DNA of 64,000 bases, taken from positions 1 through 64,000 of the forward strand of contig JADGRA010000038.1 of assembly GCA_017881265.1 (NCBI GenBank), given 5' to 3'. The DNA is from Myxococcaceae bacterium (GTDB lineage: Bacteria > Myxococcota > Myxococcia > Myxococcales > Myxococcaceae). This document shows positions 5,855 to 32,515 of the stretch, piece after piece (positions within the stretch are counted from its first letter, which is position 1; every line of letters starts with the position of its first letter). The notes beneath the pieces were generated by a model. That model did no database searches. It saw only the letters and a list, made by a program, of their open reading frames with translations, and had not been told where the DNA came from. The position numbers and the translations under genes are program-made.

Positions 5855-8104
5855 TCAGTGGGGCCCGGCCGCCCGGGCATCCTCGGCCAGGGCCTGCGCC
5901 AGCACGTGGTTCGGGTTCAGGGCGAGTGTCGCCTCGAATTGCGCCGCTGCCAAGTCGAGCCGCTTGGTCTGAAGGGCAAGCCGCCCGCCCAGCACATATG
6001 CGCGCAGGAAGGTGGTGTCGCGCTTCTGTAGCGCGCGCATCGCATCGAGCGCCTGGGCGGCGGTTTCGGGCGTGACACGCGTGTTGAGCGCGTATTCGGC
6101 ATTGGCGACGTCGGCCCAGCCGTCCTGTCCGCCCATCTGACGGTACCGTTCGGCCAGCGCGATGGCCTGGTCGCGGCCGTCGATGGCGTTGAAGAGCGCC
6201 TCGGTGCGAGTCCGCGCCAGTTGCTCCGCGGGCTTGACGGCGTCCAGCTTGATGAGAGCGGAATAGGCGGCATTGGCCTGGGCCTGAACGCCCTTCGCGT
6301 CCTCGACGAGTGGGTCGGTCTTCACCTTCAGGGCAACAATCTTGTCCACCAGCCGGTTGGCCAGGACACGCCAGTCGAGGCCGGGGCGCTCAGCCTCCAG
6401 ACGCGCCTTCTGGATGGTGAGCGCGTCGGCCTCGTGCGTGTAGCGTTGAATGGCCGCCCGGCGGTCATCGAGGTCGAGGAGAAGGGCCAGCGCCAGCGCG
6501 GCGTGGGCCTCGACGTAGCGCGGCTGCGAAGACACCAGCGCCTTGAGCCGGGCCTCGGCTTGCGCGCGTGAGGTCGGGTCGTCCTTCCTCAGCTGCGCGA
6601 AGGCTGCCTCCTCCTCCACCACCGCGGCAACGGGCGCGCTCTGCCAGTTGGGGAGGAAGACGCGTACAAAGGCCACGCCGCCGACGGCGATCGCCGCCAG
6701 AAACACCAGCCACAGCGCGATGCGGTTGCGACGCTCATAGCTGCGCCGCATGGCCAGCTCGATCGAATCCGTCCGGGTGACGCTCGAGTTCTCGAGCCCG
6801 GGAAGCAGCGGTGCTGCGTGGTCCGGCTCCTCCGGCGGGAGCATGAGGCCGCCACTTCGGGCGCCAACCGGCGCCGCCGGCCCGCCAAAGAGCACGGTGC
6901 CCGGGTGCGCACCAGCGGCCCCCTGGGTAGAAGCAGCCGGCGAGGCGGCAGACGTGGTTTCGAGGCCCTCAGCCCGACTGGCCGTCCTTCCATGAATGAC
7001 GGTCGCATCTGACCCTCCGGCAATGTCGACCTGAGGGTCCATCGGACCAGCTGAACCGAGGAGCGGCGTCTGCTGGAGACCAGCTGGCAGGTGAGCGGAA
7101 CTGCCGGCAACCGAAGTCTGGGGCGAGGACCGCCCTGCCGTCGGGGACGGGGGCGACGCCGCGGGCGCCGGAGGTTTCTCCCGTGACAAGGGGCCAGTGC
7201 CGACTGCTGCACCGAAGACTTGCGTCCGTTCCGGCGCTGCGGGACCGGGGGGCGCCGGTGCGGGCGCCCCGCCAAACACCTGCGTCTGGCCGGCGCCGAC
7301 GGGCGGAGGTGTGACCGGCTGGCTGGGAGCCGCGCCACCGAAGACCTGCGTCCGGCCAGCCTCCGGAGGCGCTGGGACGGCAGGGGGCGGAGCGGCAGCG
7401 CCCCCGAAGACTTGCGTTCGGCCAGACTCCGGCGGCACTGGGACGGCGGGATGCGGAGCCGCGGCACCCCCGAAAACCTGCGTCCGGCCGGCCCCCGGAG
7501 GGGCTGGGACGGCGGGATGTGGCGCGCCGACGCCCCCGAAGACTTGCGTCCGCCCAGCCGCCGGAGGCGTCGGGACGGCCGAATGTGGAGCGGCAGCGCC
7601 CCCGAAGACTTGCGGCCGCCCGGCTCCAGCGTGCGCTGGCGCGGCCCCTGGCGGCGCAGGCGTTCCCCCGAAGACTTGGGTCCGGGCGCCGCCAGGCGGG
7701 GCGGGCACTGCCGGTGGCGGCGCCGCCACTCCACCGAAGACTTGTGTCCGGCTGCCTTCCGGGACGGGCGGCGTCGCGACCGCGTCCGGACTAATGCCCC
7801 CGAAGACTTGCGTCTGGTTGACGACGCTGGGGCTTGGGGGGCCGTGGGAGGTTCCAAAGGCCGGTGTAGGCGAGACGGCCGGCGGGGGACGCCCCTGCGG
7901 CGTTCCCCCGAAGACTTGAGTCCGAGGAGCGGGGGTGCCTGCCGGCGCACCCTTGGGCGGACTGTCGGGCGCCGGCCCATCCCCCGGCCGGTAGGCGATG
8001 AAGACGTGGCCACAGCGGGTGCACTGGACCGGAGCTCCACCCGGGGGCACCAGCCGGTCATCGAGTGCGTAGTGCGTCTGGCACTGGGGGCAGCCGATTT
8101 GCAC
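5855..8104 (-). CDS. Zinc-ribbon / TQVFG-repeat / TPR membrane protein (749 aa)
   Basis: The N-terminus is a MJ0042-type zinc ribbon (CPQC ... CTRCGHVF, residues 4-34). A long Pro/Ala/Gly-rich region (about residues 60-440) follows, with eleven copies of TQVFG(G/A) spaced about 20-28 residues apart (one reads PQVFGG). The looser relatives ATVIHG and GTVLFGG come next. One membrane helix (ALWLVFLAAIAVGGVAFVRVF, about residue 475) leads into a C-terminal helical repeat/TPR region of about 250 residues. The ribbon and repeats should be cytoplasmic and the TPR part periplasmic. The start GTG 8102-8104 is preferred because ribbons of this family begin next to the first CxxC; GTG at 8122 is the alternative. 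Function is unknown. The plan resembles cytoplasm-to-periplasm linker proteins of myxobacterial motility machines. Confidence 0.85.
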   Translation of the reverse strand: MQIGCPQCQTHYALDDRLVPPGGAPVQCTRCGHVFIAYRPGDGPAPDSPPKGAPAGTPAPRTQVFGGTPQGRPPPAVSPTPAFGTSHGPPSPSVVNQTQVFGGISPDAVATPPVPEGSRTQVFGGVAAPPPAVPAPPGGARTQVFGGTPAPPGAAPAHAGAGRPQVFGGAAAPHSAVPTPPAAGRTQVFGGVGAPHPAVPAPPGAGRTQVFGGAAAPHPAVPVPPESGRTQVFGGAAAPPPAVPAPPEAGRTQVFGGAAPSQPVTPPPVGAGQTQVFGGAPAPAPPGPAAPERTQVFGAAVGTGPLSREKPPAPAASPPSPTAGRSSPQTSVAGSSAHLPAGLQQTPLLGSAGPMDPQVDIAGGSDATVIHGRTASRAEGLETTSAASPAASTQGAAGAHPGTVLFGGPAAPVGARSGGLMLPPEEPDHAAPLLPGLENSSVTRTDSIELAMRRSYERRNRIALWLVFLAAIAVGGVAFVRVFLPNWQSAPVAAVVEEEAAFAQLRKDDPTSRAQAEARLKALVSSQPRYVEAHAALALALLLDLDDRRAAIQRYTHEADALTIQKARLEAERPGLDWRVLANRLVDKIVALKVKTDPLVEDAKGVQAQANAAYSALIKLDAVKPAEQLARTRTEALFNAIDGRDQAIALAERYRQMGGQDGWADVANAEYALNTRVTPETAAQALDAMRALQKRDTTFLRAYVLGGRLALQTKRLDLAAAQFEATLALNPNHVLAQALAEDARAAGPH
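7205..7925 (-). repeat. Coding repeat array: eleven TQVFG units
   Basis: Within the zinc-ribbon gene, the DNA encoding R-T-Q-V-F-G-G plus a Pro/Ala linker recurs eleven times with a unit of about 60-85 bases. The core DNA (on plus, CCGAAGACTTGCGTCCG) is nearly invariant while the linkers vary in length. This points to expansion by duplication with selection on the TQVFG core. Confidence 0.9.
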
Positions 8105-8220
8105 GACCCTGGGCCATATCACGCTTGAGCGACGGGACAGCGCTGCCCACGCAGCAAGCCGGAGGGGGTGCACCCACACCCCGAGGCGAAAGCGTCAGCC
8201 GGCGCGGCGGTGGGCCCCCC

Positions 8221-30259: not shown

Positions 30260-32515
<2,256 letters not shown>

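Follow-up and report, generated by a model that had tools for sequence, protein, structure and literature searches.

In nearly all sequenced Myxococcaceae, a membrane protein carries in a disordered tether a short, many-copy motif whose conserved core, as read from the sequences, is T-x-x-[F/Y]-G, and substitution counts show purifying selection on its T, F/Y and G. The array of these motifs looks like a multi-socket docking strip that is, quite possibly, switched on by Thr phosphorylation. The gene was found in the window, i.e. the whole 64,000-nt stretch analysed (positions 1–64,000, forward strand, of contig JADGRA010000038.1, assembly GCA_017881265.1), which stems from the 4.4-Mb genome of a Myxococcaceae bacterium.

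Features of the array gene and of the FHA gene in the window
Feature	Positions	Strand	Basis or remark
Whole gene, 750 aa	5855–8107	-	proposed GTG start 8105–8107
MJ0042-type zinc ribbon (Zn_ribbon_4), aa 4–38	7994–8098	-	profiles PF13717 and TIGR02098, AlphaFold
Disordered Pro/Ala/Gly tether, aa 45–446 (~400 residues)	6770–7975	-	AlphaFold
Array of 11 QVFG cores (ten TQVFG, one PQVFG)	7211–7921	-	
Additional T-x-x-F-G site TPAFG, aa 81	7853–7867	-	between cores 1 and 2
Copy 5, PQVFG (Thr to Pro)	7601–7615	-	
Diverged copies TSVAG, TPLLG, TVIHG, TVLFG, aa 331–408	6884–7117	-	
Transmembrane (TM) helix, aa 463–485	6653–6721	-	preceded by RRSYERRNR
C-terminal TPR-like alpha-solenoid with long two-helix insertion	5858–6637	-	fold of domain alone, structure match
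FHA-PAS-PAS-HisKA-HATPase-receiver hybrid histidine kinase	30260–32515	+	Pfam

The proposed GTG start coincides with the MQIxCPxC at which the orthologues also begin; an N-terminal extension to 8179 is possible, if unsupported. Two CxxC pairs and scores above cut-off with both PF13717 (48.3 bits; cut-off 30.3) and TIGR02098 (35 bits; cut-off 20.9) place the N-terminal ribbon in the MJ0042/Zn_ribbon_4 group, and AlphaFold models it as a beta fold with pLDDT 83–87. The tether is predicted to lack secondary structure (pLDDT about 30–40 over aa 45–443), with helices from aa 447 onwards; the full-length model is of low confidence except for the ribbon, TM segment and helices, and is uninformative on contacts. 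Folded alone, the C-terminal domain reached pLDDT 91.6 and gave its best structural match to the TRIP8b TPR domain (Z 16.5 over 189 residues, rmsd 3.2), with a resemblance to that of Pex5, so that it has a TPR fold, albeit one that falls below the gathering score of the Pfam TPR profile (TPR_2, 11.5 bits versus a cut-off of 27). A Pfam profile search gave no FHA match in the protein. Since a positively charged flank precedes the TM helix (positive-inside rule) and there is no signal sequence, the ribbon and tether would be cytoplasmic and the TPR domain periplasmic. The earlier note on this DNA, which placed the repeats in the Pro/Ala linker of a zinc-ribbon/TPR membrane protein, described the architecture well: a Pro/Ala/Gly linker separates the ribbon from the TM helix and TPR domain. 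On the opposite strand, a 240-aa open frame with PPKTCVR repeats (7197–7919, +) is a mirror of the array and no gene candidate.

GltJ has an N-terminal MJ0042 ribbon, a long Pro-rich cytoplasmic linker and one TM helix, a layout to which that of the array protein is alike. The array protein is nevertheless not GltJ, for profile NF033761 matched it with 19.8 bits, in the ribbon region only, against a cut-off of 450. A separate GltJ-like gene is present in the same genome (L242, on contig C78 of genome G000, near 84330–84434; 417 bits on a fragment), and its product has no array; gliding-motility components may therefore be present in this small member of the family.

The earlier note had counted eleven TQVFG cores with an invariant Thr. 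We indeed find eleven QVFG cores, spaced by 36 residues, then 22 (eight times) and then 20, and encoded by a 66-bp tandem DNA repeat, but Thr occurs in only ten of them and is replaced by Pro in copy 5, so it is not strictly invariant. The diverged copies, given there as T-V-I/L, are TPAFG, TSVAG, TPLLG, TVIHG and TVLFG. Shuffling the linker 2000 times gave at most one TQVFG per shuffle, which argues against a chance origin of the array. Moreover, when the copies are compared with one another, all differences among their QVFG codons are synonymous (0 nonsynonymous pairs) whereas linker codons differ mostly nonsynonymously, indicating that selection acts on the peptide. In the proposed search for TQVFG arrays elsewhere, a six-frame pattern scan of the 4.4-Mb genome retrieved ten exact TQVFG coding sites, all inside the array gene; none of the genome's six other zinc-ribbon proteins has an array, while orthologues in the family do. 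The array protein had no match in the plasmid collection, nor did a close-homologue protein scan of the genome contig collection yield any, and a Thr-independent DNA scan for QVFG pairs contained 2 true orthologues among the matches listed, the others being chance or out-of-frame. Dense GVRWQVFGVRWQVFG-type low-complexity arrays seen in L014, L023, L090 and L114 (Desulfobacteraceae and other bins) are probably DNA repeats read as protein.

Searching proteins with the C-terminal domain as query identified one orthologue each in 84 of 96 family genomes, covering 23 of 26 genera. In the 79 orthologues that were read, ribbon, tether, TM helix and TPR domain are shared, and wherever the N-terminus of an array-bearing species could be read, ribbon and array belong to one protein. 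The usual locus runs hutH/lysC, a helix-hairpin-helix protein, the array gene, a family-2 glycosyltransferase, a TPR lipoprotein, a UvrD-like helicase and HSP70 (Pfam gave the names of HSP70, lysC and CHAP, and inspection of the sequences the others); the window has no glycosyltransferase at this place. No FHA or Ser/Thr kinase gene lies in this conserved neighbourhood. Copy number per protein is usually 8–13 (median 10, range 0–26, including arrays with 2–4 copies), with a median spacing of 21 aa. Within the family, genus g22 has a ribbon-TM-TPR protein whose short tether is free of the motif, and the protein is absent from the genus g23 genomes G084–G086 (2.1–2.7 Mb), which keep 22–28 Pkinase and 16–24 FHA matches. 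Other short conserved segments were observed: [LVI]ELPPE, about 32 aa before the TM helix, in the tethers of 40 of 80 orthologues, and, in L331–L333 and the g4/g26 orthologues L234, L235 and L239, RTQRFAMS, RTQLFAMS or RTALFAMS and ESTVRVD, which lie nearer the membrane than the TxxFG array and are further candidate Thr motifs.

When every FG in 80 tethers was considered, whatever precedes it, the residue three positions before was Thr in 751 of 811 cases and Ser in 7, even though Ser is commoner than Thr in the tethers overall (10.1% versus 8.3%); rare copies have Pro, Lys, Ala or Leu in place of Thr. Position +1 is Q, R or M and +2 is T, A, V, M, I or L, in dialects that follow genus: TQVF in g1, g2, g3, g8 and g21, TRAF in g6, TQTF/TQAF in g19, and TMMF/TMVF in g4, g15, g16 and g25. 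Thus, T and F stay constant while +1 and +2 drift between genera. Substitutions counted at aligned tether sites in 17 disjoint pairs of close species gave the same picture, with nonsynonymous changes at 5/152 motif Thr versus 203/429 other tether Thr (Fisher p 1.8e-27), making the motif Thr about 14 times less variable, and at 8/155 motif F (five of these F/Y) and 1/148 G, compared with 25/158 at +2 and 1074/5371 for the tether overall. The pattern that the earlier note had named as speaking against its proposal, a freely varying Thr amid conserved linkers, is therefore the reverse of what we see. Nor can repeat homogenisation explain the fixed Thr, since position +2 of these repeats varies more freely. 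Multivalent docking is the simplest account of a conserved short motif present in many copies along a disordered tether, and T-x-x-[F/Y]-G is probably a selected multivalent docking site. A literature search with motif strings returned nothing relevant on a TxxFG motif, and this strongly selected sequence appears, as far as the literature searched shows, to be an undescribed bacterial linear motif.

Searching with a TPR-domain profile also turned up relatives outside the family, in further families of the order. In families f7 and f8 there are 9–20 array copies, with Thr before 39 of 44 FG sites. Family f6 (L317–L319) has no array but two or three T-x-M-F sites near the membrane, VTQ[ML]FF and QT[QA]MFMA (e.g. 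VTQMFF and QTQMFM), in which T and the +3 F are kept without Gly. In families f2, f3 and f5 the ribbon-TM-TPR protein has a short tether and the motif is absent. The zinc ribbon is kept in f2, f3, f5 and f6 despite the missing array. Given the array-less ribbon-TM-TPR proteins of f2, f3, f5 and g22, the membrane scaffold is, by these sequence comparisons, separable from the array, which is gained or lost as a unit.

As to what reads the motif, we favour, tentatively and with somewhat less than even confidence, recognition of phosphorylated array Thr by FHA domains. An inner-membrane scaffold whose ribbon and long disordered tether face the cytoplasm and whose TPR domain faces the periplasm would present in each T-x-x-[F/Y]-G copy a possible site for the same cytoplasmic reader, and many readers, or one oligomeric reader, could be gathered by avidity at a place set by the TPR domain. 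Ser/Thr kinases would phosphorylate the motif Thr, FHA-domain proteins would bind it with F/Y sitting in their +3 pocket, and kinase activity would be turned into graded recruitment of FHA proteins. In FHA ligands, +3 occupies the specificity pocket, and +2 and +3 are hydrophobic in GarA, OdhI, DgcB and homologues including M. xanthus FHA-GGDEF proteins (PMC6733907); the GarA peptide ETTSVF contains T-S-V-F (PMC8546545). With its fixed Thr, its unconstrained +1, a +2 that is mostly small or hydrophobic and an aromatic +3, the array matches this rule (PMC6733907), and, as far as conservation can tell, Thr appears required with Ser excluded, and F or Y at +3 behaves as a specificity residue. Family f6, keeping T and +3 F without Gly, is what the pT+3 rule would allow. 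The acidic -2 residue that is frequent but not universal in such ligands, a Glu in DgcB and GarA, is not seen, with D/E at -2 in 3.3% and Thr, Ser, Ala, Arg, Lys or Gly preceding the motif Thr. Likewise, mycobacterial Ser/Thr kinase sites have acidic residues upstream of Thr (PMC7164672) besides a hydrophobic +3; the array has a hydrophobic +3 and lacks the acidic residues, a difference from a mycobacterial consensus that may not be the myxobacterial one. No FHA requirement is known that would account for the near-invariant Gly at +4. The candidate phosphothreonine/FHA array put forward in the earlier note is partly supported: Thr rather than Ser and the aromatic +3 fit it, but there are neither acidic upstream residues nor an FHA or kinase neighbour. 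We also considered whether array presence tracks the FHA and kinase repertoire and rejected this: 37 Pkinase and 20 FHA matches were counted in this genome, but array-less relatives are also rich in both (6–35 FHA matches in g22, g23 and f2–f6 genomes), leaving no co-occurrence signal.

A reader that ignores phosphorylation is nearly as likely as FHA reading of phosphothreonine, and we regard it as a real, if less than even, possibility that a folded cytoplasmic partner (a small GTPase, or a polarity or envelope-machine component) docks on T-x-x-F-G without any modification, its Phe held in a pocket, its Gly making the turn and its Thr contributing a side-chain hydrogen bond. All conservation data fit this equally, a turn better explains the conserved Gly, and both the absence of a kinase or FHA neighbour and the tolerated Pro, Lys and Ala copies agree with it; however, the scarcity of Ser exceeds what would be expected if only the hydroxyl mattered, and family f6 has lost Gly but not T and F. 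It is rather improbable that no dedicated reader exists and that the repeats act as FG-type stickers, whose weak self-association would cluster or condense the membrane protein: repeated FG in a disordered Pro/Ala tether, fairly even spacing and variable copy number, as in sticker-spacer proteins, would suit such a role, but a fixed Thr at -3 is not required for self-association, and some arrays have as few as 2–4 copies.

Intramolecular binding of the motifs by the zinc ribbon, as a self-inhibitory clasp, is very unlikely, for although ribbon and array go together in array-bearing species, the ribbon persists in the array-less f2, f3, f5 and f6 and the six other zinc-ribbon proteins of the genome carry no array. 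Least credible of all is a functionless low-complexity repeat kept by replication slippage. The 66-bp tandem repeat and varying copy number are what slippage would leave, but the purely synonymous differences among QVFG codons, the restrained motif Thr, and arrays across many genera and in f7 and f8 with different +1/+2 residues are not, and as a complete account a neutral repeat is refuted by the Thr frequency at FG sites together with the close-species substitution counts.

The FHA-domain kinase that the earlier note saw in the window does have an FHA domain but is a hybrid histidine kinase, not a Ser/Thr kinase. Since it lies 22 kb from the array gene, and at least one FHA match per 64 kb has a chance of about 0.25 (20 matches in 4.4 Mb), it is no evidence for a link between array and FHA domains and was rejected as support. 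Its domain order resembles that of M. xanthus EspA. Its N-terminus, MSVDPATVVLPP, has a T-V-V-L site just before the FHA domain, a layout similar to the self-ligand tails of DgcB and GarA.

Among known systems, the FHA ligands of GarA/OdhI (peptide SDEVTVETTSVFRADFL) and Bdellovibrio DgcB also have Thr followed by hydrophobic +2 and +3, with only +1 differing between T-S-V-F of GarA and T-Q-V-F of the array. Those ligands, however, are single sites in cis with the FHA domain and preceded by acidic residues, whereas the array offers many sites in trans, in a protein with no FHA domain, without acidic context and with a conserved +4 Gly. In Agrobacterium, the inner-membrane type VI secretion protein TssL recruits Fha through cytoplasmic pThr14, phosphorylated by PpkA (PMC3953482); unlike the array, TssL has one site, and works with a kinase and an FHA partner dedicated to its own secretion system. 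M. tuberculosis Rv1747, with FHA domains and a disordered linker, is phosphorylated by PknF, and phosphorylation promotes its clustering into membrane nanoclusters (PMC9312465). Like the array protein, it is a membrane protein with a disordered cytoplasmic region, an analogy only in how it works, given that Rv1747 is an ABC transporter that has FHA domains itself and lacks both a TxxFG array and a periplasmic TPR domain; with no FHA domain in its polypeptide, the array protein does not qualify as an Rv1747-like FHA scaffold. Phosphothreonine/FHA docking (TssL-Fha; PMC3953482) and phosphorylation-driven clustering (Rv1747; PMC9312465) are already known, but the literature searched gave no description of a membrane TPR scaffold bearing many conserved trans sites in an array.

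In its widest form, the phosphothreonine/FHA reading would make the protein a family-wide scaffold whose array is phosphorylated by one or more Hanks-type kinases and recruits FHA proteins in a number coupled to the periplasmic TPR domain, with copy numbers from 0 to 26 tuning the response between species; this we consider doubtful. Although Ser/Thr kinases and FHA domains are counted by the dozen in myxobacteria (101 Pkinase and 49 FHA matches in a 9.5-Mb relative), few of their substrates have been linked to a reader, and the array provides a conserved, repeated candidate motif, open to testing, in a membrane protein that almost every member of the Myxococcaceae has. Even if phosphorylation plays no part, the search for the reader can draw on natural controls, namely the dialects TQVF, TRAF and TMMF and the array-less relatives.
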